64,000 bases of DNA, taken from positions 310,001 through 374,000 of the forward strand of contig JIBA01000014.1 in the NCBI GenBank assembly GCA_000620545.1. The letters are read 5' to 3'. A program made the translations under genes and the position numbers. This DNA comes from Intrasporangiaceae bacterium URHB0013 (GTDB taxonomy: Bacteria; Actinomycetota; Actinomycetes; Actinomycetales; Dermatophilaceae). Shown piece by piece: positions 32 to 62,845 of this stretch. The number at the start of each line of letters is the position of its first letter. Position 1 is the first letter of the stretch. Below the pieces are notes generated by a model. That model worked only from the letters and a program-made list of their open reading frames with translations, was not told the origin of the DNA and did no database searches.

Positions 32-589
32 TCAGCGTGGTGCGTTGAGGCCCCGGACGATGACAGCGAGCCCGACCTCGAACGCCTTGGCCTCGGTCGT
101 CGCGTCAGGTGCGGGAAGGTCGGGATCGACGGACGCCGCACGGGCCCGATCCTGCTGCCCCGCAACGGATCCCAGGATGTGGTGCACGACGAGCGACGCC
201 ACCTCGTCGCGTTCGGAGGCGGGCGCACCGGCGTCGTGGACGAGGCGAGCGAGCTCCCGGAGCGCGCGTGCGGCGCCCGGCTCGACGGCATACGCGAGAC
301 CGACCACGTCGGCGGCGTCGGGCACCTGCACGAGCGCGTCACGCACCGCCACCGCGAGCCCGACGAGTGCCTCCACCGGGGGCCGGTCCGACGGCGGCGC
401 GGGGATCTCAGCCAGTAGCGCGTCGGCCACCTCGACGAGGAGCTCCTGCTTGTTCGCGACGTGCCAGTAGAGGGCACCCGGCGCGACGCCGAGGTCGCGG
501 GCGAGGCGGCGCATCGAGAGGTCTCCGAGACCATAGCGGCGCAGCAGGTCGACGGCAGCCCCGACGACCTGCTCCCGGCTGAGTGCCAC
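32..589 (-). CDS. bioQ: BioQ-type TetR repressor of the biotin operon
   Basis: 185-aa TetR-family protein. The N-terminal helix-turn-helix reads LSMRRLARDLGVAPGALYWH at about residues 23-42, and the C-terminal half is a helical ligand/dimer domain. A GTG start at 589 is chosen because a GGGGGAG ribosome site sits about 6 bases upstream; the frame is open further up but without another good site. It is divergent from bioBAFD, and two TGAAC-N3-GTTCA palindromes lie between them. That is the operator type known for actinobacterial BioQ, so the gene probably represses itself and the biotin genes. The family is seen directly; the BioQ name comes from operator and context. Confidence 0.85.
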   Translation of the reverse strand: MALSREQVVGAAVDLLRRYGLGDLSMRRLARDLGVAPGALYWHVANKQELLVEVADALLAEIPAPPSDRPPVEALVGLAVAVRDALVQVPDAADVVGLAYAVEPGAARALRELARLVHDAGAPASERDEVASLVVHHILGSVAGQQDRARAASVDPDLPAPDATTEAKAFEVGLAVIVRGLNAPR

Positions 590-658
590 GCGGTCTCCCC
601 CTCGGCGAACGGACCCGGCGGATCCGCATTGACAGCCGAGCCTGGCGACTCGGCATAC

Positions 659-687
659 TGAACACTGTTCAAGTTGAACATCGTTCA
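659..687. promoter_or_regulatory. Two tandem BioQ-type operators
   Basis: TGAACACTGTTCA (659-671) and TGAACATCGTTCA (675-687) are two 13-bp palindromes separated by 3 bases, in the divergent region between the TetR gene and bioB and about 23 bases before the bioB start. They match the TGAAC-N3-GTTCA form described for BioQ. A centre-to-centre distance of 16 bp puts two dimers close together on the helix. Confidence 0.85.
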
Positions 688-709
688 ACGCCCCGCGCAA
701 GGAGGCCGC

Positions 710-1786: not shown

Positions 1787-3119
1787 ACCACTCGGCTCGC
1801 CCCTGACCGCCCGTGACCGCGGGCTCCTCTGGCATCCCTACGCCCCGCTCGACGGACCGGAGCCGTATGCCGTCGACGCAGCCTCAGGCGTCCGGCTGAC
1901 CCTCACCGCGCCGGACGGCGAGCGCTTCGAGGCGGTGGACGCGATGGCCTCGTGGTGGTGCGCCGTCCACGGCTACCGCAACCCGGTCCTCGACGCGGCG
2001 GCCCACGAGCAGCTCGACCGCTTCAGCCACGTCATGTTCGGGGGCCTGACGCACGAGCCCGCCGTGCGGCTCGCCGAGCGACTCACGGCGATGGCGCCCG
2101 GACCGATGGCGCACGTGTTCTTCGCCGACTCCGGCTCGGTCTCGGTCGAGGTCGCCCTCAAGCTCGCGCTCCAGTTCCAGGCGGCCCGGGGCCGGCCGGC
2201 ACGGCAGCGCTTCCTCACCGTCCGCGGCGGCTACCACGGTGACACCTTCGCCGCGATGAGCGTGTGCGACCCCGTCGACGGGATGCACTCCGCCTTCCCG
2301 GGCGTCCTCGCCCGCCAGGTCTTCGCCCCTCGGCCACCCAACGCACGGCTGGTGACCGCGGAGACCGGTGAGGAGCACTGGGAGACGGACCGGTCCGCCC
2401 TGGATGCCTGGGCGGCCGAGGTGCGTACCCTCGCAGAGACGAACCGCGACGAGCTCGCGGCGGTCGTCGTCGAGCCCGTCCTCCAGGGCGCCGGGGGCAT
2501 GCACGTCTTCCACCCGGAGTGCCTGCGCGTGCTGCGCGACGTCGCGGACGAGCACGGGCTTCTCCTCGTCGTCGACGAGATCGCGACGGGCTTCGGTCGC
2601 ACGGGACGGCTCTTCGCCTCCGAGTGGGCCGACGTGGCCCCGGACGTCATCTGTGTCGGCAAGGCCCTGACGGGCGGGTACCTCTCCCTCGCAGCGGTTC
2701 TCATGACCGGCCGGGTGGGTGAGGCGATCACGCGGTCGGCCTTCCGGGCCTTGCTGCACGGGCCCACCTTCATGGCCAACCCGCTGGCCTGCGCCGTGGC
2801 CAACGCGTCGGTCGAGCTCGTCGAGAGCACGTGGAAGGACCACGTCCCCCGCGTGGGACGACTCCTCGCCGAGCACCTGTCGCCGGCTGCCGCTCTCCCC
2901 CACGTCGCCGACGTGCGCACCCTCGGCGCGGTCGGTGTCGTGCAGCTCACGTCCCCGGTCGACGTCGTCCGCGTGACCCGCGCCGCGCTGCGGCGTGGCG
3001 TCTGGGTGCGGCCTTTTCGCGACCTCGTCTACACGATGCCTCCCTACGTCTGCGCCGACGACGACATCCGGCTCATCGCCCAGGGGATCGTCGGGGCCGT
3101 CGCGGAGGTCGACGGATGA
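1779..3119 (+). CDS. bioA: Adenosylmethionine-8-amino-7-oxononanoate aminotransferase
   Basis: 446-aa class III PLP aminotransferase converting KAPA to DAPA with SAM as amino donor. Visible motifs are WHPYAPL near the N terminus, [13 protein letters not shown] (PLP phosphate site), [22 protein letters not shown] (PLP Asp) and [10 protein letters not shown] (PLP Lys). The start at 1779 overlaps the bioB stop by 8 bases; the open frame begins at 1689 inside bioB, but the conserved region begins after 1779. Its stop overlaps the bioF start as ATGA. Length is normal for BioA. Confidence 0.95.
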
Positions 3120-4414
3120 GCGACTGGGACAGATGGCTGGCGGAGCGCTCCGACCTCCGGGCCGAGCGCGGCATCGAGCGCTTCGACCCCGTCCTGCGCC
3201 TGGGCGGACGCCACCGCGGTTTCCGCGACCCCCTCGACCTGGCATCGAACGACTACCTCGGGCTCTCCCGCGACGAGCGCGTCGTGGGCGCGGCCCACGA
3301 GGCACTCGAGCGCTACGGCGCCTCGGCGACCGCCAGCAGGCTCGTCACGGGGACCCTGCCCGTGCACCGTGACCTCGAGGCCGCCCTGTGCCGGCTCACC
3401 GGCCAGCCGAGCGCCCTCGCCTTCTCCACCGGGTATGCCGCCAACCTCGGAGCGCTGACGGCGCTCAGTGGGCGTGGGGCGGAGATCCTCCTCGACGCCC
3501 ACGCCCACGCCTCGCTCCACGACGCCGCCCGCATGTCGCGGGTGCCCCACGCGACGTTCGCCCACAACGACGCCGCGGCCCTCGACCACGAGCTCGCGGC
3601 CCGCCCTGACCGACGGGTCCTCGTCGCCGTCGAGTCGATCTACTCCGTGCTCGGTGACGCTGCTCCGCTGAGAGCACTGGCGGAGGTCTGTCGCCGCCAC
3701 GGCGCCCTGCTCGTCGTCGACGAGGCCCACGGCATCGGGGTGGCCGGCCACGGGCGCGGCCTCGTCCACGAGCTCGGGCTCCTCGGGGCCCGCGATGTCG
3801 TCGTGACACTGACGCTGTCCAAAGCCCTCGGCTCGCAGGGCGGCGCCGTCCTCGGGTCGACCTCCGTGCGCCACCACCTCGTCAACACGGCGCGGACCTT
3901 CATCTTCGACACCGGACTCGCCCCCGCCTCGGCCGCCGCGGCGTGCGCTGCCGCCGGCCTCGTCGCCGACGACCCGACGCTCTCGGCCTCCGTCCGGGCC
4001 AACGCCCGCACCATCGCGGCCATCTGCGGGGTCGAGGAGGCGGCGGGAGCCGTGCAGTCCCTGCCGATGTCCTCGCCCGAGAGCGCGGTCGCCGCTGCCC
4101 TCGACCTCCGCGCCCAGGGTGTCCTCGTCGGCTGCTTCCGCCCGCCGAGCGTGCCCGACGGCGTGTCCCGGCTCCGGGTGACGGCCCGCGCCGACCTCGC
4201 CGGGGACGACCTCTACCAGGCTGCCCGGCTCGTGGCGCGCGCCGCCGCGACCCACGGTGGGACTCCTCAGCCCGATACCGTCGAGGGGCCACGGGCAGGG
4301 GACGCTCCCTCCCCCGTCCGTGGCCTCCCGTCGGTCGCGGCCGTCGAGGGCGCGCAGGGACCGGTCCCCCCTTCGCCGCTCGGTTCGATCCCACCGCACG
4401 GCGACGATGACTGA
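3116..4414 (+). CDS. bioF: 8-amino-7-oxononanoate synthase with extended C-terminal tail
   Basis: 432-aa PLP enzyme condensing pimeloyl thioester with alanine to KAPA. Motifs seen are LASNDYLGLS, the substrate His in DEAHGIGVAGHGRGL, and the PLP lysine in LTLSKALGSQGG. The family is usually about 380-390 aa. Here the last 50 or so residues after RAAATHGG are Pro/Gly/Asp-rich with no clear homology, and may be a recent read-through extension. ATGA overlap with bioA and 8-base overlap with bioD indicate strict operon coupling. Confidence 0.93.
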   Translation: MSDWDRWLAERSDLRAERGIERFDPVLRLGGRHRGFRDPLDLASNDYLGLSRDERVVGAAHEALERYGASATASRLVTGTLPVHRDLEAALCRLTGQPSALAFSTGYAANLGALTALSGRGAEILLDAHAHASLHDAARMSRVPHATFAHNDAAALDHELAARPDRRVLVAVESIYSVLGDAAPLRALAEVCRRHGALLVVDEAHGIGVAGHGRGLVHELGLLGARDVVVTLTLSKALGSQGGAVLGSTSVRHHLVNTARTFIFDTGLAPASAAAACAAAGLVADDPTLSASVRANARTIAAICGVEEAAGAVQSLPMSSPESAVAAALDLRAQGVLVGCFRPPSVPDGVSRLRVTARADLAGDDLYQAARLVARAAATHGGTPQPDTVEGPRAGDAPSPVRGLPSVAAVEGAQGPVPPSPLGSIPPHGDDD

Positions 4415-5111
4415 GCTGCAGGTGCCGCCCGTGGTCGTCGTCACGGGCACCGACACCGACGTGGGCAAGACCGTCGTCACCGCAGCCGTCGTCGCGACGG
4501 GGCGGGCAGCGGGACTGCGGGTGGCGGCATACAAACCCACGCAGACGGGGGTGTCGCCCGGCCAGCCCGGGGACATGGCCGAGGTGGAGCGACTCACCGA
4601 GGCCTGCACGGCCGAGGGGGTGCGCTTGCGCGCGCCCATGGCCCCGAGGCCGGCAGCCGCACTCGAGCACGCTGTCCTGCCGACCCTGGCGGACCACGTA
4701 GCCCGTGTCGCGGACCTGCGCCGCCGCCACGACCTCGTCGTCGTCGAAGGTGCAGGCGGTCTGCTCGTCGAGCTCACCGACGCGGCCGAGACACTGGCCG
4801 ACCTCGCGACCGCCCTGCCGGACAGCGGCGTGCTCGTCGTTGCACGGGCCGCGCTGGGTACCCTGAACCACACGATGTTGACGCGAGAAGCCTTGTCGCA
4901 CAGAGGTGTCCGACAGATCGGGATCGTCATCGGGTCGTGGCCCGCGCGTCCCGACATCATCGAGGAGACGAACCGCGACTACCTCGGCGCCCTGCCCGAG
5001 GGCCTCCTCGGCGTCCTGCCCCTCGGCGCCCCCAGCCTCGACCCGACGGCCTTCCGTGCGGCCGCTCCCGGCTGGCTCGCGGGCCTGTCTCAGCGCCTCG
5101 GCACGCCCTGA
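4407..5111 (+). CDS. bioD: Dethiobiotin synthetase
   Basis: 234-aa P-loop enzyme that closes the ureido ring of dethiobiotin with ATP and CO2. Walker A is GTDTDVGKT at about residues 14-22, and the VVEGAGGLLVEL motif follows. The ATG at 4407 overlaps the bioF stop; the frame is open upstream to 4257 but only the part from 4407 is conserved. Last gene of the biotin operon. Its final 22 bases overlap the 3' end of the convergent cimA gene, so there is no intergenic terminator. Confidence 0.94.
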   Translation: MTELQVPPVVVVTGTDTDVGKTVVTAAVVATGRAAGLRVAAYKPTQTGVSPGQPGDMAEVERLTEACTAEGVRLRAPMAPRPAAALEHAVLPTLADHVARVADLRRRHDLVVVEGAGGLLVELTDAAETLADLATALPDSGVLVVARAALGTLNHTMLTREALSHRGVRQIGIVIGSWPARPDIIEETNRDYLGALPEGLLGVLPLGAPSLDPTAFRAAAPGWLAGLSQRLGTP

Positions 5112-8624: not shown

Positions 8625-9998
8625 TCAGTCGGTCGAGATGAAGACGTTCTTGACGTCGGTGAACGCGTCGAGCGCGTCGGGGCCCAGCTCGCGCCCGATC
8701 CCGCTCTGCTTGAAGCCACCGAAGGGGGTCGAGTACCGCACGCTGCTGTGGGAGTTGACCGAGAGGTTGCCGGCTTCGACACCACGCGCCACGCGCAGGC
8801 CGCGACCGATGTCGCGGGTCCAGATCGACCCCGAGAGGCCGTATGCCGTGTCGTTGGCCTTGGCGACGGCGTCGCCCTCGTCGTCGAAGGGCATGACGGC
8901 GACCACGGGTCCGAACACCTCCTCCTGCCAGACCCGGTCGCTCGTCGAGCGCGGCAGGACGACGGTCGCGGGGTACCAGTAGCCCCTGCCGTCAGGAGCG
9001 TCGCCCCGGAAGGCGACGTCGACGGGCTCGGTGGCGTCCTCGACGTACGAGCGCACCGTGTCGCGCTGGCCGCCGCTGATGAGCGGACCCATCTCGGCGC
9101 CCTCGTCACGGGGGTCGGAGACGACGACCGCGCGCACCGCCGTCTCGAAGTGCCCCATGAAGGTGTCGAAGACGCTGCGCTCGACGAGGATGCGGCTGCG
9201 GGCGCAGCAGTCCTGGCCCGCGTTGTCGAAGACGCCGTAGGGCGCGCGCGCGGCGGCGAGCTCGAAGTCGGAGTCGGCGAAGACGATGTTGGCGCTCTTG
9301 CCGCCGAGCTCGAGCGTGACGCGCTTGACCTGGTCCGCGGCGCCCCTCATGACGCGCTGGCCCACGGAGGTCGAACCCGTGAAGCAGATCTTGCGCACGT
9401 CGGGGTGCGTGACGAAGCGCTCGCCCACCACCGTGCCCTTCCCGGGGACCACGGTGAGGACTCCCTCGGGGATCCCGGCCTCGAGGGCGAGCTCGCCGAG
9501 CCTCATGGCCGTGAGCGGCGTCAGCTCCGCCGGCTTGAGCACGACCGTGTTGCCGGCAGCGAGGGCAGGCGCGAAGCCCCAGCCGGCGATCGGCATCGGG
9601 AAGTTCCAGGGGACGATGATGCCGACGACGCCGAGCGGCTCCCTGAAGGTGATGTCGATGCCGCCCGCGACGGGTATCTGGCGGCCGAAGTTCCGCTCCG
9701 GCGCCCCGGAGTAGTAGGCGAGGACGTCGCGGACGTTGCCCGCCTCCCAGCGCGCGTTGCCGATCGTGTGCCCGGCGTTCTCGACCTCGAGCAGGGCGAG
9801 CTCCTCCTGGTGCTCGCCCACGAGGTCGGAGAAACGACGCAGCAGCAGCGCGCGGTCGGCAGGGCTCACCGCCCGCCAGGCAGGGCTCGCTGCCGAGGCC
9901 CGGGCGATCGCGGCGTCGGCCTGTTCGATCGAGGCCAGGTCGACGGTGCGGACGATCTCCTCGGTCGCCGGGTTGATGACGTCGTGCGTGGTGGTCAC
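8625..9998 (-). CDS. NAD(P)-dependent aldehyde dehydrogenase
   Basis: 457-aa aldehyde dehydrogenase. The cofactor region includes VPWNFP and FTGSTSVGQ, the general base Glu is in LELGGKSAN, and the nucleophilic Cys is in NAGQDCCARSR. It is slightly shorter at the N terminus than the usual 480-500 aa. A GTG start overlaps the stop of the glutamine-synthetase-like gene as GTGA, so the two are coupled. It would oxidise the gamma-glutamyl aldehyde (PuuC role; AldC in mycobacteria). Confidence 0.88.
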   Translation of the reverse strand: MTTTHDVINPATEEIVRTVDLASIEQADAAIARASAASPAWRAVSPADRALLLRRFSDLVGEHQEELALLEVENAGHTIGNARWEAGNVRDVLAYYSGAPERNFGRQIPVAGGIDITFREPLGVVGIIVPWNFPMPIAGWGFAPALAAGNTVVLKPAELTPLTAMRLGELALEAGIPEGVLTVVPGKGTVVGERFVTHPDVRKICFTGSTSVGQRVMRGAADQVKRVTLELGGKSANIVFADSDFELAAARAPYGVFDNAGQDCCARSRILVERSVFDTFMGHFETAVRAVVVSDPRDEGAEMGPLISGGQRDTVRSYVEDATEPVDVAFRGDAPDGRGYWYPATVVLPRSTSDRVWQEEVFGPVVAVMPFDDEGDAVAKANDTAYGLSGSIWTRDIGRGLRVARGVEAGNLSVNSHSSVRYSTPFGGFKQSGIGRELGPDALDAFTDVKNVFISTD

Positions 9999-15452: not shown

Positions 15453-16517
15453 TCAGAGCCGGGACGCGACAGCCTCGCCGATGTCCCTGGTGCTGCGGGC
15501 GGCATCCCGGCGCTCGGCGAGGTCCGCGGCGACGGCATCCTCGACGCGTGCAGCCTCCTTGTCGAGGCCGAGATGGGCGAGCAGCATGCCCACCGAGAGG
15601 ATGGCTGCGGTCGGGTCGGCACTCCCTTGGCCCGCGATGTCGGGGGCCGATCCGTGCACCGGCTCGAACATGCTCGGGGTCGTGCGAGCCGGGTTGATGT
15701 TGCCCGACGCGGCGAGCCCGATGCCGCCCGCGATCGCTGCAGCGATGTCGGTGAGGATGTCGCCGAAGAGGTTGTCGGTGACGATGACGTCGAAGCGGCC
15801 GGGGTCGGTCGCCATGAAGATCGTCGCCGCGTCGATGTGCTGGTACGCCGTCTCGACGTCCGGGAACTCGGCGCCGACCTCCTCCACGGTGCGTCGCCAC
15901 AGGTGGCCGGCATACGTGAGGACGTTGTGCTTGTGCACGAGGGTCAGGTGCCGGCGCGGCCGGGCCTGGGCACGGGCGAAGGCGTCGCGGACCACGCGCT
16001 CGACGCCGTACCGGGTGTTGACGCTGACCTCGGTCGCGATCTCGGCTGCGGTGCCGACACGCAGGGCGCCGCCGTTGCCGGTGTACGGACCCTCGGTCCC
16101 TTCGCGGACGACGACGAAGTCGATGCCGTCGGGAGCGACGCGCGCGACGTCGAGCGGGCTCGAGACGCCGGGGAAGAGCTTGGCGGGCCGCAGGTTGACG
16201 TAGTGGTCGAGGGCGAAGCGGAGCGGCAGCAGCACACCGCGCTCGAGCACGCCGCTCGGGACGCTGGGGTCGCCGATGGCGCCGAGGAGGATCGCGTCGT
16301 GACCCCGCAGCTCCTCGAGGACGGACTCGGGCAACGTCTCACCCGTGGCGTGCCAGCGGCGGGCGCCGAGGTCGTACTCGGTGGTCGTGAACGTCGGACC
16401 GCCCTCACTCGTCACCGCCTCGAGGACCTTGAGACCCTCCGCGACCACCTCGGGGCCGATGCCGTCCCCGCCGATCACGGCGATGGAGTACGCGTCCCTG
16501 ACCTGCGTCTGTGCCAT
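15453..16517 (-). CDS. leuB: 3-isopropylmalate dehydrogenase
   Basis: 354-aa NAD-dependent dehydrogenase of leucine synthesis. GGDGIGPEV is at the N terminus, substrate arginines are in the [13 protein letters not shown] region, and the Mg-site motif reads [24 protein letters not shown] -10 box (16524-16529) lies exactly 6 bases before the ATG, so transcripts can be leaderless. Farther upstream lie a 26-aa ORF and a Val-Val-Leu-Ile leader peptide that may also feed into this gene. Confidence 0.94.
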
Positions 16518-18310: not shown

Positions 18311-18370
18311 GTATGCGACTGGGCGGGCACCCGTCGGATCTCTCCGGTCGGTGCCCGCCCAGCGGCATAC
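18311..18370. terminator. Bidirectional terminator framed by GTATGC/GCATAC
   Basis: TGGGCGGGCACC (18320-18331) pairs perfectly with GGTGCCCGCCCA (18350-18361), and outer GTATGC (18311) pairs with GCATAC (ending 18370). It lies between the convergent AI-2E gene and serA and would serve both. The outer arms are copies of the over-represented GGCATAC word. Confidence 0.82.
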
Positions 18371-19981: not shown

Positions 19982-20293
19982 AGGGGGGTCCCTTCCGGAC
20001 GGGCGGGGCCGCACGCACGTCGGGGGCGCGGGCGTCGGAGGCACCGCGGTGTGCCGTCGGCGAGTCTAGGCGCTCGACGTCCGAGAATCACGACAGGTAA
20101 CCAACATGTGAACAGCGCCACTGCGCGTGGTGGACGTATCAGGGGATGGGACACGGATCCCGTATGCCGGACGACGTGATGGGTGATCCCCGTAGCTGGG
20201 GCCGGGCCATCGCCGCCACCACGCGCGGGCTGACCCACTGATCCCACCGTCCGAGGCGTTGCGCGGCCACGACCTGCACGTCAGGGTGGGGTC
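19982..20293. other. Intergenic region upstream of serA
   Basis: 312-base region between two divergently transcribed genes. A TAGACT -10 candidate for serA lies at 20063-20068 on the minus strand, giving an 80-base untranslated leader, and one GTATGCC word is at 20162. I see no riboswitch, leader peptide or ORF that I can support. Confidence 0.45.
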
Positions 20294-21058
20294 ATGCGCA
20301 TCGTGGTGGCTGGTGGCGCCGGGGACCTCGGGTCGCGCGTCGTCCGAGAGGTGACGGCGCGCGGGCACCAGGTGGTGCCTGCGAGCCGGCGGACCGGTGT
20401 GGACCTCACGACCGGCGAGGGACTTGCCGACGCCGTCGCAGGCGCAGACGTCGTCGTCAACTGCGCCGATGACACGTCACGCGGTGACGACGTCACGGTC
20501 TACGGGACGCGACGACTGGCCGACGCGGCCGCCGACAGCGGGGTGCACCTCGTCCACGTCTCGATCGTCGGCATCGACGACCACCCCATGACGTACTACC
20601 GCCGCAAGCTGCGCGCAGAGCAGGGCATCCAGGCGACCGGAGGGCCGGCCACCGTCCTGCGCTCCACCCAGTTCCATTCCCTTGCAGCGTTCTTCGCCCG
20701 AACCATTACGAAGGGGCCGCTCACCGTCACGATCGGCGACATGGCCTTCCAGCCCGTCGACACCGACTTCGTCGCCGCGCGCCTGGCCGACCTCGCGCTC
20801 GGAGCGCGCCCGACGGCATACGCCCGGGCGACGGACGTCGCAGGACCCGACGTGCTGACCGTGGGCGAGCTCGCGACCCTCCTGCGCGCGCACCGTGGCG
20901 CATCCGCCCCGCGGGTCGTGCGCTTCCCAGCCGTCGGCGGCGTCATGCGCGCGTTCGCTGAACGGCGCACCGTTCCCTCCCCCGGTGACGCGCAGACCGG
21001 CGGTCTTCCGTTCGTTGCCTGGCTCGCCACGCAACCGGAACGTCTCACCGGTCGCTGA
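20294..21058 (+). CDS. NAD(P)-binding atypical SDR (NmrA/epimerase-like)
   Basis: 254-aa Rossmann protein. The N-terminal VVAGGAGDLGSRVV nucleotide motif (residues 4-17) is characteristic of extended or atypical SDRs. The active-site YxxxK is partly kept as YYRRK. It is probably an NAD(P)H-dependent reductase or sensor; no substrate can be named. The ATG has GGGTGGGG upstream. It stands alone, ending at a strong hairpin shared with ilvC. Confidence 0.75.
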   Translation: MRIVVAGGAGDLGSRVVREVTARGHQVVPASRRTGVDLTTGEGLADAVAGADVVVNCADDTSRGDDVTVYGTRRLADAAADSGVHLVHVSIVGIDDHPMTYYRRKLRAEQGIQATGGPATVLRSTQFHSLAAFFARTITKGPLTVTIGDMAFQPVDTDFVAARLADLALGARPTAYARATDVAGPDVLTVGELATLLRAHRGASAPRVVRFPAVGGVMRAFAERRTVPSPGDAQTGGLPFVAWLATQPERLTGR

Positions 21059-28953: not shown

Positions 28954-29000
28954 CCCGGGCACACGGCATACGCCATAAGGCATACGGCGGCACCTACTCC

Positions 29001-34331: not shown

Positions 34332-34357
34332 TCAATTCAGGCGCGTATCCTTGGCGT

Positions 34358-38342: not shown

Positions 38343-38359
38343 ACGGAATCCCTTGCTGG

Positions 38360-41148: not shown

Positions 41149-41187
41149 GCCACCGCGTTCCGGGCGCCACGTGGGACACAATGAGGT

Positions 41188-42366
41188 ATGCCGCACACGT
41201 CCCGCTCGATCGGCCGCGCCCTCCTGGGTGGGGTCGTCGTCGCCCTGGTCTCGGCCGCGTGCACGTCGGCCGAGCCCAGCTCTCCCCCGAGAGGTTCCGG
41301 GACGACCGCCCCGACGACGCAGAGCCCGACGACCGCGTCCGGGAGCAGCAGCTCGACGACGACGGCCGCCGCGACCACACGCGCGCCCGTCGCCCAGCCG
41401 GCCGGACCGGTGACGCTGCTCGGTGGGATCGACATCGCGTGGTCGGTCGCCGAGCTGCCCGACGGCAGCGCTCTCGTCAGCGAGCGCAACACCGGCCGCA
41501 TCCACCACGTGCCCAAGCCGGGCTCCGGAGGCCGGGCGACCGTCGCCGGGAGGCTCCCGATCACCCGCACCGAGGGCGAGGGCGGACTCCTCGGGCTCGC
41601 CGTGCCGGAGGACTTCGTCGCCGACCCCGTCTTCTACGCGTACTACTCGACCGAGAGCGACAACCGCATCGCCGCCGTGCCGTGGCGCGACGGGACCATC
41701 GGCGAGCCGGTCGTCATCTTCTCCGGCATACCCCGTGGCCGGAACCACAACGGCGGTCGCATCGCCTTCGGTCCCGATGGCTACCTCTACGTCGGTACGG
41801 GCGAGGCCGGCGACACGTCGCTGTCGCAGAACCTCGACTCCCTCGGCGGCAAGATCCTGCGCATCACTCCGGACGGCGATGCCGCACCGGGCAACCCCTT
41901 CGGGGGCTCGCCGATCTGGTCCCTGGGTCACCGCAACGTGCAGGGCCTTGCGTGGGACAGCCGGAAACGCTTGTGGGCGAGCGAGTTCGGACAGAACACC
42001 TTCGACGAGCTCAACCTCATCGAGCCCGGCAAGAACTACGGGTGGCCAGAGGTCGAGGGTCGAGCCGACGACCCGGACTACGTCGACCCGGTCGCCGAGT
42101 GGCCGACGTCCGACATGTCCCCGAGCGGCATCGCCGTCGGCCCCGACGGTGCCGTCTACATGGCCGCCCTGCGCGGTCAGTCGGTATGGCGGGTGCCGGT
42201 CAACGCCGACGGCTCCGTCGGCACCCCGACGCGCCACCTCCAGGGCGTCTACGGTCGCATCCGTGACATCCGCTTCCGCGACAACCGCGCGTGGATCACG
42301 ACGAGCAACAACGACCGCGCCGACCGGCTCCTGTCGCTGCCGCTGTCCGCGGTCGGGGTCGGCTGA
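41188..42366 (+). CDS. PQQ-dependent soluble glucose dehydrogenase-type lipoprotein
   Basis: 392-aa lipoprotein. The signal has lipobox VSAAC (Cys25), then about 45 Ser/Thr-rich linker residues, then a six-bladed propeller of the sGDH/sorbosone dehydrogenase family. Typical motifs are GGLLGLAVPEDF, RNHNGGRIAFGPDGYLYVGTGEAGD and GHRNVQGLAWD. It oxidises sugars outside the membrane if PQQ is available; many homologues have unproven activity. A CACAAT-like -10 lies about 5 bases before the ATG, so leaderless expression is likely. Confidence 0.86.
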   Translation: MPHTSRSIGRALLGGVVVALVSAACTSAEPSSPPRGSGTTAPTTQSPTTASGSSSSTTTAAATTRAPVAQPAGPVTLLGGIDIAWSVAELPDGSALVSERNTGRIHHVPKPGSGGRATVAGRLPITRTEGEGGLLGLAVPEDFVADPVFYAYYSTESDNRIAAVPWRDGTIGEPVVIFSGIPRGRNHNGGRIAFGPDGYLYVGTGEAGDTSLSQNLDSLGGKILRITPDGDAAPGNPFGGSPIWSLGHRNVQGLAWDSRKRLWASEFGQNTFDELNLIEPGKNYGWPEVEGRADDPDYVDPVAEWPTSDMSPSGIAVGPDGAVYMAALRGQSVWRVPVNADGSVGTPTRHLQGVYGRIRDIRFRDNRAWITTSNNDRADRLLSLPLSAVGVG

Positions 42367-43443: not shown

Positions 43444-44989
43444 ACTGGAGCTTGGCGAGGATGAGCTCGCGGGCCTTGCCGGCGTCGGCCTGGCCCTTCA
43501 TCTCCTTCATGACCTGACCGATGAGCGCGCCCGCAGCCTGGACCTTGCCGTCGCGGATCTTCGCCGCGACGTCGGGGTTGGCCTCGATGACCTTGTCGAC
43601 GGCGGCCTCGAGGGCGCCGTCGTCCCGGACGAGCTCGAGTCCCCGGGCGTCCGCAACAGCCGTGGGCGTGCCCTCGCCGGCGAGCACGCCGTCGAGCACC
43701 TGCCGGGCCATCGAGTCGTTGAGCCGGCCTGCGGCGACGAGACCGTCGAGCTCGGCGATGTGCGCAGGCGTCAGCCCCAGCCCGGCGGCATACGTCACGA
43801 TGTCCTGGCCCTCGGCGTTCGCACGCCGCGAGGGCTCACCGAGCCACCACTTCCTCGCGGCAGCGGCGCTGGAACCGGCGGCGACGGTCTGCTCGATGAG
43901 CTCGACGGCCCCGGCGTTGACGACGTCGCGCATCTCCAGATCGCTGTAGCCCCAGTCGGACTGGAGGCGCCTGCGGCGCAGTCCGGGAGGCTCGGGCAGC
44001 GTGCCACGCAGGGCATCGACCGTCGCGCGCGTCGGCGCGACGGGCACGAGGTCGGGCTCGGGGAAGTACCGGTAGTCCTCGGCGTCGGACTTCACGCGGC
44101 CCGACGTCGTGATGCCGGTGTCCTCGTGCCAGTGCCGGGTCTCCTGCAGGATCGAGCCGCCGCTCGCGAGGATCGCCGCGTGACGCGAGATCTCGTAGCG
44201 CACGGCGCGCTCGACCGACCGCAGCGAGTTGACGTTCTTCGTCTCGGTGCGCGTGCCCAGCGGCACGGCGAGCTGCTCCTCGCTGAGCGGGTCGCCGACC
44301 CGGGGGCGCAGCGACACGTTGGCGTCGCAGCGCATCGAGCCCTGCTCCATCTTCACGTCGCTGACGTCGAGGGCGCGCAGCAGCTCGCGCAGGGCCGAGA
44401 CGTATGCCTTGGCGACCTCGGGCGCGCGCTCCCCCGCCCCGACCATGGGCTTGGTGACGATCTCGATGAGCGGGATCCCGGCACGGTTGTAGTCGACGAG
44501 CGAGTGGTCCGCGCCGTGGATCCGGCCGGTCGCCCCGCCGATGTGCAGCGACTTTCCCGTGTCCTCCTCCATGTGCGCCCGCTCGATCTCGACGCGGTAG
44601 GTGCTGCCGTCCTCGAGCTCGACGTCCAGGTGGCCCTGGAACGCGATCGGCTCGTCGTACTGCGACGTCTGGAAGTTCTTCGGCATGTCCGGGTAGAAGT
44701 AGTTCTTCCGGGCGAAACGGCACCACTCGGCGATCTCGCAGTTGAGCGCGAGCCCGATCCGGATCGCCGACTCGACGGCCTTCTCGTTGACCACGGGAAG
44801 GGCGCCCGGGAGGCCGAGGCACACCGGGCAGACCTGCGAGTTGGGCTCGGCGCCGAACTCCGTGGGGCAGCCACAGAACATCTTGGTCGCCGTGTGCAGC
44901 TCGACGTGGACCTCGAGCCCCATGACAGGGTCGAACTTCTCCATGGCCTCGTCGTAGTCCAGGACGGCGTCGGTCGCGACGGTGGCCAT
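43442..44989 (-). CDS. gatB: Asp/Glu-tRNA amidotransferase subunit B
   Basis: 515-aa GatB. The catalytic cradle begins [18 protein letters not shown] (N-terminal Cys ligands), then [18 protein letters not shown]-type residues. The C-terminal tail domain includes [29 protein letters not shown], which binds tRNA. Part of GatCAB, which forms Gln-tRNA and Asn-tRNA by transamidation. ATG at 44989, one base beyond the gatA stop. Stop codon lies inside the last copy of the repeat array. Confidence 0.96.
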
Positions 44990-44990: not shown

Positions 44991-46529
44991 TCAGGCTCCC
45001 TTCACAGCAGCGACGCCGCCCAGCTCGGGTGCGCGGTCGAGGATCGGACCGCCCCAACGGTCGACGAGCGCGGCCTCGAGGGCGGCGCCCACGGAGTAGA
45101 GGCGCTCGTCCTTCGTGGCCGGCGCGAGGATCTGGATACCGGCGGGCAGGCCGTCCTCGTCCGCGAGACCGGACGGGATCGACATGCCGGGGACGCCCGC
45201 GAGGTTGGCCGGGATGGTCGCGATGTCGTTGAGGTACATCGCCATCGGGTCCTCGAGCTTGTCGCCCAGCCTGAAGGCCGTGGTCGGCGCGGTGGGGCTG
45301 ACGAGCACGTCGACCTTGTCGTATGCCTTGGAGAAGTCCTGCGCGATGAGCGCGCGGACCTTCTGCGCCGAGCCGTAGTACGCGTCGTAGTAGCCGGAGC
45401 TGAGGGCGTAGGTGCCGAGGATGATGCGGCGCTTGACCTCGGGTCCGAAGCCGGCGTCGCGCGTGGCTGCCATGACCTGCTCGGCGCTCGGCGCGTCGAC
45501 GCCCTCGGGCAGCACGCGCATCCCGTAGCGCATCGCGTCGAACTTGGCGAGGTTGCTCGACGCCTCGCTGGGCAGGATGAGGTAGTAGGTCGCGAGGGCG
45601 TACTCGAAGTTGGGGCAGCTCACCTCGACGACCTCGGCTCCGAGCTCCTCGAGCAGGGCGACGGCCTCGTCGAAACGGGCTCGCACGCCGGGCTGGTAGC
45701 CCTCCCCGCCGAGCTCCTTGACGACACCGATCCTCATGCCGCGCACGTCGGCGGAGCGGGCCGCCTCCACCACCGGCGGGACCGGCGCGTCGATCGACGT
45801 CGAGTCCATCGGGTCGTGGCCGCCCATGACGGCGTGGAGCAGCGCGGTGTCGAGCACCGTGCGACCGCACGGGCCGGCCTGGTCGAGCGAGCTGGCTAGG
45901 GCAACGAGGCCGTAGCGCGAGACGCCGCCGTAGGTCGGCTTGGTGCCGACCGTCGCCGTGACGGCCGCAGGCTGCCGGATCGAGCCGCCGGTGTCGGTGC
46001 CCGTGGCGAGCGGCGCCTGGAAGGAGGCGAGCACCGAGCTCGAGCCACCGCCAGATCCGCCGGGGATGCGGTCGAGGTCCCACGGGTTGTGCGACGGGCC
46101 GTAGGCGGAGTGCTCGGTCGAGGAACCCATCGCGAACTCGTCCATGTTCGTCTTGCCGAGGATCGGCAGGCCCGCTTGGCGCAGCTTCGTCACGACGGTC
46201 GCGTCGTACGGCGGGATCCAGCCCTCGAGGATCCTGCTGCCGCAGGTTGTCGGCAGGCCCTTCGTCGCCATGACGTCCTTGACGGCGATGGGCACTCCTG
46301 CCAGCGCACCGAGGCTCTCGCCGGCGTGACGTCGCTCGTCGATCGCCCGGGCCTGAGCGAGGGCGCCCTCCCCGTCGACGTGCAGGTAGGAGTGCACCTG
46401 CCCGTCGACGGCCGCGATGCGGTCGAGGTGCGCCTGGGTCACCTCGGCGGAGCTGATGGTGGAGCTCGCGAGGGCGTGGGCCAGGTCGGCGGCCGTGGCC
46501 CTCGTCAGGTCAGTTGGCAGGTCGGTCAC
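44991..46529 (-). CDS. gatA: Asp/Glu-tRNA amidotransferase subunit A
   Basis: 512-aa amidase-signature protein. Catalytic Lys in [10 protein letters not shown], the Ser-cisSer-Lys surroundings in [11 protein letters not shown] and [11 protein letters not shown]. It supplies ammonia from glutamine to GatB. GTG start at 46529 with GAAGG about 8 bases upstream; the frame extends to a TTG at 46559 without better support. Between gatC and gatA lies a GTATGCC/GGCATAC hairpin. Confidence 0.95.
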
Positions 46530-46587: not shown

Positions 46588-46621
46588 GCGTATGCCGGGT
46601 GCTCGGCAGGGCGGCATACGC
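46588..46621. promoter_or_regulatory. Inverted GTATGCC/GGCATAC pair between gatC and gatA
   Basis: GCGTATGCC and GGCATACGC form a perfect 9-bp stem around a 16-base loop inside the gatC-gatA gap. It may attenuate or process the message, or mark the motif family only. No T run follows. Confidence 0.65.
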
Positions 46622-49716: not shown

Positions 49717-49764
49717 GTATGCCGTCCGGCGCGTCCGCGCGTGGGACGCGGCCGGACGGCATAC
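49717..49764 (-). terminator. Long hairpin downstream of the binding-protein gene, built on GTATGCC
   Basis: GTATGCCGTCCGGC pairs perfectly with GCCGGACGGCATAC (14 bp), and an inner GCGTCC/GGACGC pair extends it to about 20 bp. It lies 35 bases after the substrate-binding protein stop and before livH. This position fits partial termination or message protection that gives more binding protein than permease. Confidence 0.8.
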
Positions 49765-52966: not shown

Positions 52967-55183
<2,217 letters not shown>

Positions 55184-55242: not shown

Positions 55243-56754
55243 ATGACCAACCTCGCCGCCAACCTCACCGCCACCGCGGCCCGCGTGCCCGACAAGGTCG
55301 GCATCAAGCTCGACCAGGTGGAGCTGTCGTGGTCGGCACTGCACCGGGCGGCGGCTGCGGTGGCCGGACAGCTGCGCGCGGCAGGGCTCGAGCCGGGCGA
55401 CCGGGTCTCGCTCATCCTCCCGAACGTCCCGGCCTACCCCGTCGCCTTCTACGGCACCCTGCTCGCCGGCGGCGTCGTCGTGCCGATGAACCCGCTGCTC
55501 AAGGCCGGGGAGATCCAGTACTTCTTCGAGGACAGCGGCGCGCGGTTCAGCTTCGTGTGGCCCGACTTCGCCGACGAGGCCGGCAAGGCCGCCGCCGAGA
55601 CCGGCACCCGTCTCGTCGTGTGCGGCCCGATGGGCCCGGCCGACGGCCAGTTCGACGCGTCCGAGTCGGTGGGAGCCCCGGTGCACGAACCGGTCGAGCG
55701 CGCCGACGACGACACCGCGGTGATCCTCTACACGAGCGGCACGACCGGCAAGCCCAAGGGCGCCGAGCTGACGCACTTCAACCTCCACCGCAACGCCGAG
55801 CGCTCGGCGACCGACATCATGCAGATCGTCGAGGACGACGTGATCATGGGCTGCCTGCCCCTCTTCCACGTCTTCGGCCTCACCTGCGGCCTCAACACCT
55901 CCGTCCAGCGTGGCTGCACGCTGAGCCTCATCCCGCGCTTCGACCCCGCCAAGGCCATCGAGGTCCTCGGGCGCGACCGCGTGACGATCTTCCAGGGGGT
56001 CCCGACGATGTATGCCGCGATCCTCAACCACCCGAACGCCGACCAGGCCGACACGAGCAGCCTGCGCACCTGTGCGTCCGGCGGTTCCGCGATGCCGGCG
56101 CAGGTCATGAAGGCGTTCGAGGAGAAGTTCGGCTGCCAGATCCTCGAGGGTTACGGCCTGTCCGAGACCTCACCCGTCGCGTCGTTCAACATGCCCGACA
56201 TGCCGACGAAGCCCGGCACCATCGGACGCGCCATCCCCGGCTGCGAGATGAAGCTCGTCGACATCGAGGGCAAGGACACCCCCGCCGGCGAGATCGGCGA
56301 GATCGCCATCCGGGGCGAGAACATCATGAAGGGCTACTGGAACCGCCCCGAGGCCACCCAGGAGGCCATTCCCGACGGGTGGTTCCGTTCCGGAGATCTC
56401 GCGACCGTCGACGACGAGGGGTACTACACGATCGTCGACCGCAAGAAGGACCTCATCATCCGCGGCGGCCTCAACGTCTACCCGCGCGAGGTCGAGGAGG
56501 TGCTCTACACGCACCCCGACGTCCTCGAGGCTGCGGTGGTGGGCGTGCCCGACGACCTCATGGGCGAGGAGGTCGGCGCCGCCGTCGTGCTGCGCCCCGG
56601 CTCGGCGGCGACCCTGGAGGACGTCCAGGCCTACGTCAAGGACCGCATCGCGGCCTACAAGTACCCTCGCCGCATCTGGTCGCTCGACGAGCTGCCGAAG
56701 GGACCCACCGGCAAGATCCTGCGTCGTGAGGTGCGCCCCCAGAACGCCTCGTGA
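55243..56754 (+). CDS. AMP-forming acyl-CoA ligase (FadD-like)
   Basis: 503-aa ANL-superfamily ligase. The P-loop-like motif is [16 protein letters not shown]5 is [11 protein letters not shown]7/A8 is [41 protein letters not shown], and the A10 Lys is in PTGKILRRE. It activates a carboxylic acid with ATP and CoA; chain length is unknown. ATG at 55243 with ATAGGAG upstream; the frame is open earlier without conservation. Confidence 0.92.
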
Positions 56755-56789
56755 CGGCCGGCCGAAGCCGCGCTAGGGCGTCGCGGGCA

Positions 56790-58244: not shown

Positions 58245-58260
58245 CCTCGCCCTGAACCGC

Positions 58261-58299: not shown

Positions 58300-58330
58300 A
58301 TGCCCCGGTTAGACCTGCCTCATGCGAGTG

Positions 58331-59311
58331 TCAGTCCGCGCTGCGCTCCTCGAGCTCTCGCGCGGTCTCCACGGCTGCCCGCTGCACCGCCCGGGCGACG
58401 TCCGGCGCGGCAGTGGCCAGCCCACACGCGGGCGTGACGACGACGTCCATGAGTGCCGTGAGCGGCAGGCCGGTCCTCGTCCACGCCTCGACGAGCTCCG
58501 TGGCGAGCTCCTGCGGCCGCGTGCGGCTCCCGTCGGTGGGCACGACTCCGGCGTGAAGGCGTATGCCGTCCTCCACCGCGACGGCGACGCCCTCCCACTC
58601 GCGGGGGCGGAGCACGGAGGTGTCGAGCGACAGGGCGGTCGGAGAAGCCGCGCGCAGGAGCGGCAGCGGCGGGCTGGCCGCGCAGCAGTGCACGACCGTG
58701 TCGCCGTCATGGGCTGCGAGCACGGTCCTCAGCCCGTTCGCGGCCACCTGTGGGTCGAGGCTCGGGAGGCGACCGAAGCCCGACGAGGTCGGCAGCCGGC
58801 CGGCGAGCACGGTGGGCAGGCTGGGCTCGTCGACCTGGAGCACGACCTCCGCACCCGGGACGAGGCGGCGCACCGCAGCGACGTGCAGGCGCACGCCCTC
58901 TGCGAGCGAGTCGACGAGGTCCCGGCTGGCGCCGTCGTCGACGATGACGCGTTCACCGCGCGAGAGCCACACGTTGGCCGCCAGGGTCCACGGCCCGACG
59001 ACCTGGAGCTTGAGCGGCCCGGTGTGACCGTCGAACGCCTCGGCGAGCTCGTCGAGGTCCTCGCGGAGCAGTGCCCCGGTGCGCGAGGCGTCGCGCCCGG
59101 GCCTGTCGACGAGTCGCCAGCCGATCGGCTGCAGGTCGACCGGAAGGTCCACGAGCAGACCCGCCGTACGCCCGACCATGTCGGCGCCCGGCCCGCGCGC
59201 CGGCAGCTCGGGCAGGTGGGGCAGCTGGCCGTCGAGGAGCTCACGCACCTGTCCCAGCGCGTCACGCACGGAGGTGCCGGGCCAGGAGCCGATGCCGGTA
59301 GCGAGGGTCAC
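58331..59311 (-). CDS. MetE-like C-terminal-domain protein (Rv3015c type)
   Basis: 326-aa barrel related to the catalytic half of cobalamin-independent methionine synthase. The zinc-site residues appear as VVHCCAASPP and TPACGLATA, and QVDEPSLPTVL matches the MetE substrate loop. It lacks the N-terminal MetE half, so the methyl donor and acceptor are unclear. The same gene neighbours ligA in mycobacteria. Confidence 0.82.
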   Translation of the reverse strand: MTLATGIGSWPGTSVRDALGQVRELLDGQLPHLPELPARGPGADMVGRTAGLLVDLPVDLQPIGWRLVDRPGRDASRTGALLREDLDELAEAFDGHTGPLKLQVVGPWTLAANVWLSRGERVIVDDGASRDLVDSLAEGVRLHVAAVRRLVPGAEVVLQVDEPSLPTVLAGRLPTSSGFGRLPSLDPQVAANGLRTVLAAHDGDTVVHCCAASPPLPLLRAASPTALSLDTSVLRPREWEGVAVAVEDGIRLHAGVVPTDGSRTRPQELATELVEAWTRTGLPLTALMDVVVTPACGLATAAPDVARAVQRAAVETARELEERSAD

Positions 59312-59459
59312 CGCGCCAGCCTAGGGCGACGCGACGGCGGCGCCGCCACTGCGGTCCCCCCGGTCCAAGGGGCGCACCGTCGCACGTCTCAATCCCTTGA
59401 GCGTGCCCTCCCAGCCGTCGCGCACTGGTCGGCCAGGGGCACGCAGTAGCGTGGCGCCG

Positions 59460-60347
59460 GTGCGACGCCACGACTTCTCCGGACCAGCCGACCTGCGCGC
59501 GATGCAGGATTTCGCCTCGCGGCTCTGGTCACCGACGAGTCGCTTCCACCCCGGCCAGCTGGCGTGGAGCCGGTACCACCGACCTGTCGACCCGAGCAGG
59601 CTCGACGAGGGCGAGGCCATCGCCATCTGGACGGAGGGCGGCGAGGTGCTCGGCTTCGGGTGGGCCGAGGCACCGGACTGGCTCGAGCTGCAGGTCGCTC
59701 CCGAGCGGCCCGACGTCGCCGCCGAGATCATCGACTGGTTCGAGGAGGTGAGCGACGCAGAGACGCAGTCAGCGCTCGTCATGGAGGACGATGTCGCCGA
59801 GCCGGCACTTGCTGCAGCGGGATTCACACCACACGCCGATGACCCCTTCTTCACGCACCACGTGCTCGACCTCGTCGACCTTCCCCCGGTGCCGCGCATT
59901 CCCGGCTATCGCTTCAGGCACGTCGGGCCGCACGAGGCTCGCGACCGTGCTGCCGTGCATGCCGCCTCCTGGTCGGATCTCGGGGCGTCGACGATCGACG
60001 AGCAGGCCTACGAGCAGGTCATGGCCGCGTGGCCCTACCGGCCGGACCTCGACTGGGTGGCCGTCGACGCCGACGACCGGATGGTGGCCTCGGCCCTCGT
60101 CTGGCTCGACCCGGCCCGCGGCGCGGGCCTCCTGGAGCCGGTGGGCTGCGTACCCGAGCACCGCGGCCGGGGACTCGCTCGCGGGGTGACCCTGGCCGCG
60201 GTGCACCGGCTCGCCGAGGTGGGCGCTACTGCGGCACAGGTCAGTCCGCGTGGCGACGACGGCTATCCGGCCCCGCAGCGCCTCTACCGTTCGATGGGCT
60301 TCCGCCCGTGCGCGCGCACGGTCACGTGGAGCCGGTCGCTGGACTGA
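59460..60347 (+). CDS. GNAT-family acetyltransferase (two-domain)
   Basis: 295-aa protein. The C-terminal GNAT domain has the acetyl-CoA loop [28 protein letters not shown] and ends [13 protein letters not shown]; the N-terminal half looks like a degenerate GNAT copy. GTG at 59460 chosen because TAGCGT (59447-59452) lies 7 bases upstream, giving a leaderless start; a TTG at 59397 opens the frame earlier. Its last 26 bases overlap the convergent mnmA. Confidence 0.8.
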
Positions 60348-61470
60348 AACGCCGCCGCATCCCGTGCTGACCACTCGCGCGCTCGAGGCCCGACGCGGCG
60401 ATCGTGGCGGACCCCACGACACGAGTCCCCTCGTAGAGCACGACGGACTGCCCGGGCGCCACACCCCGGACCCGGCCCTCGAGCCGGACCTCGACCCGGT
60501 CGCCTTCCGCCCACGCCGTCGCGGGGTACTCCTCGCCGTGCGCCCGCACCTGGGCGCCGACGTGCACGATGCCGTCGGGCGCGGGACCGCACCACCGGGC
60601 GTGGTCCCCCGTGATCGCGTTGACGCCGAGGAGGTCGGCGGCGCCCACGACCACCTGGTTGGCCTCGGGACGCACCTCGACGACGTAGCGCGGCTCACCG
60701 TCGGCGGCAGGCCGCGACAGACCGAGTCCGCGCCGCTGACCGACCGTGTAGGCGAAGGCCCCCGCATGGTGTCCCACGACGTCACCGGACGTGTCGACGA
60801 TCTCCCCGGGCGACTCGCCGAGCTCGCGCGTCAGCCAGCCCCGGGTGTCGCCGTCGGCGATGAAGCAGATGTCGTGGCTGTCCGGCTTCCTGGCGATGAA
60901 GAAGCCACGCTCGGCCGCCTCCTCGCGGATGCGCGGCTTGGTGGTGTCGCCGAGCGGGAAGAAGGACCGGGCCAGCTGGTCGGCGTCGAGCACTCCGAGG
61001 ACGTAGCTCTGGTCCTTGGCCGCGTCGACGGCGCGGTGCAGCTCTCGCCGCACCTTCCCGGTCCCGTCGTCGGTCTCCACCACCTGGGCGTAGTGGCCCG
61101 TGGCGACCGCGTCGAAGCCAAGGGCGAGCGCCTTGTCGAGCAGGGCAGCGAACTTGATCTTCTCGTTGCAGCGCAGGCACGGGTTCGGCGTGCGGCCGGC
61201 GGCGTACTCCGCGCGGAAGTCGTCGACGACGTCACGCTTGAACCGGGCCGCCATGTCCCACACGTAGAAGGGGATGCCGAGCACGTCCGCCACCCGTCGC
61301 GCGTCACCGGCGTCCTCGATGGTGCAGCACCCGCGCGCCGACTCACGCAGCGTCGCGGCGCTCTGGCTCAAGGCGAGGTGCACGCCGACGACCTCGTGGC
61401 CGGCGTCGAGCATGCGGGCGGCGGCCACCGCCGAGTCGACGCCACCGCTCATCGCCGCCACGACCCTCAC
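60322..61470 (-). CDS. mnmA: tRNA 2-thiouridylase
   Basis: 382-aa enzyme that thiolates the wobble uridine of Lys, Glu and Gln tRNAs. The ATP PP-loop is [10 protein letters not shown] at the N terminus, and the catalytic Cys pair is in [14 protein letters not shown] and [13 protein letters not shown] start overlaps the iscS stop (GTGA), coupling it to its sulfur donor. Confidence 0.95.
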
Positions 61471-62657
61471 GACGCGTTCGCCTCCCGTGCGCGACGGGCC
61501 CGGTCGATGGCCGCAGGGAGGGCCTCGATGAAGGTGTCGACGTCGGCACGGGTCGACGTGTGTCCGAGGGTCAGGCGCAAGGCCCCCCGCGCGTCGCTCT
61601 CGGCCACCCCCATCGCCAGCAGGACGTGGCTCGGCTGCGGCACCCCGGCCTGGCACGCGGAGCCGGTCGAGCAGGAGACCCCGGCCGCGTCGAGCAGGTA
61701 CAGCAGTGAGTCGCCGTCGCACCCGGGCACCAGCAGGTGCACGTTGCCCGGCAGTCGGCTCACACCGTCGCCGCGCTGCCAGACACCGGAGGGTCGGATG
61801 TCGGGCGAGATCGCCATGGCGCGCTCGATGAGGTCGTCGCGCAGGGCCACGAGCCGGGCGGACTCCTCGGCGATCGACCCGGTGGCCTCGACGAGCGCGG
61901 CGGCGAAGCCGACGATGGCCGGGGCGTCGAGCGTGCCGGAGCGCACCTGCCGCTCCTGCCCACCGCCGTGAGTGAGCGCGACGAGCTTCGCGTCGCGTCG
62001 CGCGACGAGGGCGCCGACACCGATGGGGCCACCGAGCTTGTGCGCGGTGACCGACATGAGGTCGGCGCCGCTCGCCTCGAAGTCGACGGCCAGGTGACCG
62101 GCGGCCTGCACGGCGTCCGTGTGGAACGGGACCCCGAACTCGTGCGCCACGTCGGCGATGGCCCGGACGTCCTGGACGGCCCCGACCTCGTTGTTGGCCC
62201 ACATCACCGACACGAGGGCGACCGAGTCGGGGTCGGCCGCGATGGCGGCGCGGACGGTGGCGGGCTCGACGACTCCGTCGGGCGTGCACTCGAGCCAGGT
62301 GACCTTGGCGCCCTCGTGGGCGACGAGGAAGTCGACGCAGTCAAGGACGGCGTGGTGCTCGGTGACACCGACGAGTAGGCGCACACGCGCGGGGTCGCCG
62401 TCCCGGCGAGCCCAGTAGCTGCCCTTGACCGCGAGGTTGTCGGACTCGGTACCGCCGGACGTGAAGATGATTTCCGAGGGGCGTGCGCCGAGGCAGCGGG
62501 CGATCTTCTCGCGTGACTCCTCGACGGCCCGACGTGCAGCGCGACCCGTGCGGTGGAGGGACGAGGCATTGCCCACGACCGCGAGCTGCTCCGTCATCGC
62601 CGCGAGGGCAGCAGGAAGCATCGGCGTCGTCGCCGCATGGTCGAGATAGGTAGTCAC
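61467..62657 (-). CDS. iscS: Cysteine desulfurase
   Basis: 396-aa PLP enzyme taking sulfur from cysteine. PLP Lys is in [13 protein letters not shown], and the catalytic loop Cys in [20 protein letters not shown]. The GTG start (62657) gives [13 protein letters not shown], the conserved N terminus. Immediately precedes mnmA, so it probably serves tRNA thiolation. Confidence 0.94.
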
Positions 62658-62845
62658 CCACCGATTCTAGGACGCCTGCGCGTCCCTCCCGGACCGCCCG
62701 CGGGACGAGGCCGCCGGCCCGTCCGAGGCCAGCGCGTATGCCGTCCCGTCGGCTACCCACGCGTAACCTCCCGCCGCGGCGCCTCGTTGGCCAGTCACGT
62801 CGCCACCCTCCACCGTCGCGGGGTGGCCCAGCAGAGAGGGATCTC

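Follow-up and report, generated by a model that had tools for sequence, protein, structure and literature searches.

The 64,000-nucleotide stretch of DNA analyzed here, called the window throughout, lies at positions 310,001 to 374,000 of contig JIBA01000014.1 of Intrasporangiaceae bacterium URHB0013, whose family, the Intrasporangiaceae of NCBI, we take to be the Dermatophilaceae of GTDB. The window is strewn, within genes and between them, with copies of one short word, CGGCATAC. Seven of its bases, GGCATAC, occur 31 times in the window, 17 times on the forward (+) and 14 times on the reverse (−) strand, exactly as counted in a first-pass annotation made from the letters alone. Dinucleotide shuffles contained a mean of 2.06 copies (standard deviation 1.43; maximum 8 in 100 shuffles), in agreement with the over-representation claimed there; the annotation's own figure of about six copies by chance was too generous, given these shuffles and the 3.6 copies predicted by an order-3 Markov model. 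The word had been described as a heptamer. The enrichment is real, but the unit is the eight bases CGGCATAC, because 28 of the 31 copies of GGCATAC in the window have a C in front. A G precedes 31 of the 34 occurrences of GCATAC in the window, as had been noted, and the extension GGAC or CGAC said to be frequent before the word is a real preference, although a weak one. The next most over-represented heptamer after GGCATAC is TTGGCCT/AGGCCAA, with 24 window copies and 3.1 expected by the order-3 model.

According to a home-made gene caller, 13 of the 31 copies are located between genes. Within coding sequences, CGGCATAC is found on the + strand at 287..293, 4526..4532, 15909..15915, 20815..20821, 25980..25986, 33505..33511, 39758..39764, 41725..41731, 43787..43793 (in gatB) and 54347..54353, and on the − strand at 1865..1871, 3433..3439, 8841..8847, 27948..27954, 56010..56016 and 58561..58567; two further coding copies, both on the − strand, carry the heptamer with an A in front (AGGCATAC), at 44402..44408 in gatB and at 45321..45327. 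Intergenic copies on the + strand lie at 652..658, 18364..18370, 28965..28971 and 38338..38344, the last being the same in all seven aligning relatives of the genus, and a heptamer with an A in front (AGGCATAC, +, 28979..28985) lies 14 bases past the copy at 28965. On the − strand, intergenic copies lie at 20162..20168 (the same in three of three aligning genus relatives), 34356..34362, 41186..41192 (at the edge of a called coding sequence, and counted as intergenic) and 62736..62742 (outside called genes). The remaining four form two inverted pairs, each between two genes: 46590..46596 (−) with 46613..46619 (+), and 49717..49723 (−) with 49758..49764 (+). Nineteen of the 20 positions quoted in the annotation were correct, and the other, 54348, is really 54347. 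The window also contains, at 29001-29191, an interspersed, partly palindromic repeat of about 190 bases, of which there are many further matches in this genome, on either strand, and weaker ones in relatives of the genus.

Genome-wide excess of the word

The whole genome (4.57 Mb) contains 2156 copies of GGCATAC, or one per 2.1 kb, 1093 on the + and 1063 on the − strand, while the word read backward occurs 203 (+) and 188 (−) times; these counts extend the enrichment beyond the window and rule out a window-only or island effect. The lack of strand bias asserted for the window likewise holds for the genome, as it does for a single 300-kb stretch (68 and 64 copies), in both cases by forward and reverse sequence strand. 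A 464-kb sample of the genome contained 202 copies of CGGCATAC against 10.9 expected, and the top-ranked over-represented 8-mers were CGGCATAC and its overlaps. The bases flanking GGCATAC in this sample were C at −1 in 92%, A at −2 in 45% and G at the next base in 63%. None of the 24 one-base variants of CGGCATAC exceeded 2.3 times its expectation and several were depleted; recognition therefore looks sharp.

Codon preference alone had been judged insufficient to explain the copies, and the coding sequences bear this out. The gene caller delimited 400 genes in the 464-kb sample, with 410 kb of coding and 54 kb of intergenic DNA. The coding sequences hold 146 copies of CGGCATAC against a mean of 9.85 and a maximum of 18 in 20 synonymous-codon shuffles, and the intergenic DNA holds 50, a density 2.6 times higher. 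The word is read as Tyr-Ala in antisense frame 2 (88 copies), as Ala-Tyr in sense frame 1 (35) and as Gly-Ile in sense frame 2 (15). The Tyr codon TAT is used at 88 of 112 word-context positions as compared with 8.1% overall, the Ile codon ATA at 15 of 78 (0.55% overall) and the Ala codon GCA at 35 of 96 (5.8% overall), these rare codons being used where the word calls for them. The word read backward shows a smaller excess in coding sequences (24 versus 6.0 in the synonymous shuffles), which this null leaves unexplained. Codon usage as the cause is rejected on the synonymous shuffles in this genome and on those repeated for other dialects, in which the size of the excess varies as described below. 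Both conditions that the annotation had named as refuting its claim, genome-wide counts equal to a codon-aware null and a lack of enrichment outside the window, were examined, and neither applied.

Distribution and dialects in the family

The word was counted in 186 genomes of the Intrasporangiaceae/Dermatophilaceae, assigned to the family via named relatives; the nearest named relatives of the window's GatB, 81 to 83% identical, belong to Janibacter, Ornithinimicrobium and Nostocoides. CGGCATAC is present in 400 to 4724 copies in 106 of these genomes and in fewer than 400 in the other 80, and all nine genomes of the window's genus have 1423 to 2358. In 362 genomes of 19 other families, from an order-wide sample of 396, it reaches at most 180 copies, indicating that CGGCATAC is limited to one family within this sample. 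Among the 80 low genomes, five carry CGGCATCC, ten CGGCGTAC and 19 CGAAGGGR in its place; the remaining 46 had intermediate counts or none of the words where tested, the two one-base variants being counted in some of them.

The replacement words were obtained from word scans of genomes without CGGCATAC and then counted in whole genomes. CGGCATCC numbers 2195 to 4480 copies in six of 58 genomes tested (G017, G018, G034, G035, G036 and G178) and 260 to 1038 in the other 52; G036 carries both words (2195 CGGCATCC, 1217 CGGCATAC). The codon null was exceeded in G034 (44 coding copies versus 6.6), as was the intergenic expectation (12 versus 0.6). CGGCGTAC numbers 1125 to 4185 in ten of the 58, with four more genomes at 752 to 1011; its motif is looser, the form in G002 being CGNCGTAC. 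CGAAGGGR is present in 1621 to 3405 copies in all 19 genomes of genera g27 and g36, which have 7 to 41 CGGCATAC each, and in 113 to 547 in the other 167 of the 186; in named loci of J. terrae and J. hoylei, CGAAGGGR is present and CGGCATAC absent. In G117 and the rest of its genus the preferred word is GGCATACC, with the first base free, and no clear word emerged in the approximately 94 kb scanned of genus g47.

Dialect labels were mapped onto the phylogeny of the tad-2 ATPase (TadA; 53 rows), in which bootstrap support has not settled and CGAAGGGR genomes are labeled as having none. The labels cluster, with 12 changes as compared with 24.8 in shuffles. CGGCATCC accounts for two changes, both forced by well-supported branches, and CGGCGTAC for five, three of them so forced; the four words need seven changes when wordless rows are left out. 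Dialects are inherited by lineage, with repeated one-base switches or a swap to the unrelated CGAAGGGR, and the word as a whole is a real, large and lineage-structured feature.

Conservation of positions in relatives, suggested in the annotation as a check, was observed: across nine sites and eight relatives of the genus, the word is kept in 39 of 58 alignable comparisons, which are not independent of each other, versus 39.6% for control 8-mers matched in G+C. A comparison of the tad-2 locus showed the word sites of the window's genome to be retained in 18 of 25 cases among CGGCATAC relatives (G039, 6/6; G045, 6/6; G175, 4/10; G041, 2/3) and in two of 11 among CGGCATCC relatives (G178, 0/5; G017, 2/6), and one site has turned into CGGCATCC in each of G178 and G017. 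At most of the lost sites the sequence is CGGCGTAG or close to it, so that the common Tyr codon has returned. This small sample suggests that the upkeep of sites at the tad-2 locus depends on the dialect. Conversely, at four sites occupied by the word in a relative but not in the window, the window sequence departs from it by one, two and three bases in three, seven and five of 15 genome-by-site cases; therefore, no single precursor mutation explains the word.

CGGCGTAC was also followed outside the family, where 49 genomes were searched. Ten named Nocardioides genomes contain 1026 to 3280 copies, 4.4 to 22.8 times the backward-read word, whereas this ratio is 2.8 to 4.6 in four Streptomyces, 1.0 to 1.3 in three Arthrobacter relatives and 1.1 to 2.0 in J. 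hoylei and J. terrae. Pooled Nocardioides loci have 96 coding copies versus 26.8 and 13 intergenic copies versus 1.0; for pooled Streptomyces loci the values are 42 versus 24.5 and 5 versus 1.2. We regard the excess in Nocardioides as a lead, not a finding. In Nocardioides loci L178, L180-L184, L186, L187, L199 and L217, CGTCGTAC is over-represented along with CGGCGTAC. Arthrobacter/Pseudarthrobacter loci (L231, L233, L234, L236, L244 and L247) possibly have another word, CGACGGCG, with 116 coding copies versus 44.5 and 35 intergenic copies in 38.8 kb; since orthologous loci were pooled here, conserved proteins may account for part of this.

Inverted pairs and word-free DNA

When two words within 60 bases were taken as a close pair, 42 of 51 such pairs were inverted: 18 of 22 for CGGCATAC (572 copies in a 1.0-Mb sample), seven of 11 for CGGCATCC and 17 of 18 for CGAAGGG. 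The inverted pairs are often at gene ends, and those in intergenic DNA separate divergent genes in none of 11 cases for CGGCATAC, none of 12 for CGAAGGG and one of two for CGGCATCC; in Janibacter, several pairs are textbook hairpins. The longest word-free gap in the 464 kb is 14.7 kb and the second longest 11.1 kb. In the former, genes for a serine recombinase and a phage capsid are located between dprA and comM (L012:7888-14040; C12, approximately 227.9-234.0 kb), but a single island cannot serve as a test of mobile DNA, the expectation for its 8 kb being about 3.5 words. A search for phages of word-bearing hosts, intended to assess their word content, turned up only Microbacterium, Nocardia and Propionibacterium phages.

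Competence genes

Pfam matches in the window's genome include ComEA (SLBB and HHH), ComEC, DprA and a ComM-type Mg-chelatase, together with two T2SSE ATPases and TadE, Tad and DUF4244 pilin domains, and there are two tad loci. The TadF-like, TadE2-like and first Flp-like proteins have no Pfam match and were named by position and likeness. Since ComEC and T2SSE ATPases occur in 69 of 69 genomes tested, their presence or absence is ruled out as the cause of the bimodal word counts, and the difference between bearers and non-bearers must be one of specificity or use. The classical type IV pilus was rejected as the discriminating machine, its PilM being found in three of the 69. A broken comEC was likewise rejected as the cause of wordlessness: the split comEC of wordless G068 has a counterpart in G126, where an insertion of this kind coexists with a high word count, and in G114 the gene is short only because its contig ends there.

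The elements inserted in comEC measure approximately 27 kb in G068 (L292/L293) and approximately 39 kb in G126 (L295/L296); the two genomes are not of the same genus. Each has an SNVA-type motif at the start of the downstream piece, and a serine recombinase is located at the edge in G126. Phages may be using comEC as an attachment site in this family.

As for receptor candidates, tad-1 TadF has Arg for Pro after a conserved Cys-Leu in seven of nine CGGCGTAC genomes (G002, G003, G004, G014, G015, G089 and G090) and in none of the 24 other word-bearing rows in which the site is present. Co-variation did not support TadF or TadE2 as the receptor.

Discussion

In every respect visible in the sequence, CGGCATAC resembles an uptake sequence, and we consider it probable (about 65%) that it acts as one, akin to the DNA uptake sequence (DUS) or the uptake signal sequence (USS), in natural transformation via Tad/Flp competence pili. 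The first-pass annotation had left open an uptake word, a modification site or a regulatory word. The first of these fits best with the dialects, the inverted pairs and the spread over coding and intergenic DNA, while a regulatory word is unlikely because there are about 2000 sites and 146 of the 202 in the 464-kb sample lie inside genes. If CGGCATAC is an uptake word, a surface DNA receptor of the transformation machinery would prefer it as a genome-wide self tag, the reader being perhaps a Tad-pilus protein or another surface protein, and cells would take up word-carrying DNA better. Transformation and recombination of tagged fragments would then spread and maintain the word, a changed receptor would give rise to a new dialect, and the word would decay where competence was lost.

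The likeness to the DUS of Neisseriaceae, as described in the available text of two papers, is that both are short, non-palindromic words with thousands of copies on both strands, one-base lineage dialects that change along the tree, and close inverted pairs at gene ends (PMC3630211, PMC2397512). By contrast, the hosts here are high-G+C Gram-positive bacteria with Tad/Flp loci, and the PilM-type pilus is absent in 66 of 69 genomes; Neisseriaceae have the ComP receptor, whereas no ComP-like candidate was found here, and this family has a second, unrelated word. The USS of Pasteurellaceae, according to excerpts of one paper (PMC12616744), likewise spans the genome and has two dialects within a single family, and its receptor, a minor pilin, is predicted only; it differs in being discontinuous with A/T-rich flanks, whereas CGGCATAC is a compact 8-mer with weak flanks. 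Transformation of Micrococcus luteus requires comEA, comEC and two tad clusters, one of them with flp, as stated in the accessible parts of PMC4322843 and PMC6370729, and the window's genome has the same comEA/comEC/two-tad set. The term "uptake sequence" has a count of zero in the available text of the M. luteus papers PMC4322843 and PMC8467076. Among the open-licence literature matches listed, none describes an actinobacterial uptake word, and those containing GGCATAC as a whole word are unrelated by title.

Several observations weigh against an uptake function. To our knowledge, uptake words have been published only from two Gram-negative families, Neisseriaceae and Pasteurellaceae. The presumed machinery does not distinguish bearers from non-bearers: ComEC and T2SSE ATPases are found in wordless genomes as well, wordless genera also have tad genes, and the classical pilus is nearly lacking (PilM, 3/69). 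G126, in which comEC is split, nevertheless contains 1513 words. No receptor candidate held up among those tested by presence and co-variation, TadF and TadE2: tad-1 TadF was found in 28 of 30 genomes and missed in G178 (3949 CGGCATCC, one contig) and G088 (2111 CGGCGTAC); TadE2 was not found beside tadA2 in seven of 54 loci, six of them in word-bearing genomes, some loci being cut by contig ends; and the association of the TadF Arg with CGGCGTAC amounts to three independent pairs and is not significant. Finally, CGGCGTAC is made of common codons and exceeds the codon null in coding sequences only about 1.5 to 4.5 times (G084, 7 versus 4.7; G090, 27 versus 6.0), with a stronger intergenic excess (G002, 4 versus 0.5; G090, 4 versus 0.3), and it is also raised outside the family, in Nocardioides.

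The alternative that survives best, although we hold it to be unlikely, is a word tied to DNA modification, in which a resident methyltransferase or restriction-modification system recognizes the word, avoidance of attack, repair bias or regulation accumulates it, and the dialects are changes of specificity. A precedent is HIP1 (GCGATCGC) of cyanobacteria, a highly iterated 8-mer that is patchy among relatives and for which, in the available portions of one paper, a methyltransferase is the leading clue (PMC4390886). Swapped specificity subunits could yield both the one-base dialects and the unrelated word. However, HIP1 is palindromic, whereas CGGCATAC, CGGCATCC, CGGCGTAC and CGAAGGGR are not, the dialects here differ by single bases, and inverted pairs are not predicted. 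Methylation sites, moreover, do not typically show an excess of one exact 8-mer such as the approximately 18-fold one found here.

A recombination signal (Chi-like, for AdnAB/RecBCD-type enzymes) or a segregation or nucleoid word (KOPS- or matS-like) would account for the high copy number, the genic and intergenic spread and the conserved sites. Words of the Chi/KOPS type are usually skewed by replication strand, whereas the two sequence strands are even here, both on the 300-kb stretch and overall, and conserved enzymes are hard to reconcile with two genera of the family having gone over to an unrelated word; we judge this explanation very unlikely. Even less credible is context-dependent mutation or repair, or codon-pair bias, in place of selection or drive. 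Tyr-Ala and Ala-Tyr are the commonest frames, so amino-acid context matters, but the synonymous shuffles yield far fewer copies than the 146 observed, the intergenic density is higher still, the backward-read word has a much smaller excess, and the differences of one, two or three bases leave no single precursor mutation. That the words are transcription terminators or another RNA-level element, single copies being remnants, is the least plausible alternative, for although the inverted pairs lie at gene ends and almost never between divergent genes, most copies are single and genic (22 close pairs among 572 copies), and known uptake words in pairs double as terminators, according to the accessible text of PMC2397512.

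Returning to the uptake reading, we are evenly divided on its broader form, namely sequence-tagged transformation in Actinobacteria, in which this family, and perhaps Nocardioides too, would mark its DNA with lineage-specific words read by a Tad/Flp-type machine and would have rewritten the receptor-word code several times, through repeated one-base dialect switches and through the unrelated word of Janibacter-like genera. A preference of each host for uptake of its own dialect (CGGCATAC, CGGCATCC or CGAAGGGG versus a scrambled word) would be expected if CGGCATAC is an uptake word. The four words and the several independent switches within one family would then offer a natural experiment for tracing, by co-variation, the protein that reads the word, and old-dialect sites that decay while new ones appear at orthologous positions bear on whether words spread by recombination drive or by selection. 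If true, this would be a third, independent case of an uptake word, unexpected in this group of high-G+C Gram-positive bacteria without PilM-type pili; it would mean more than one evolutionary origin for the tagging of self DNA in transformation, and it would point to naturally transformable environmental genera.

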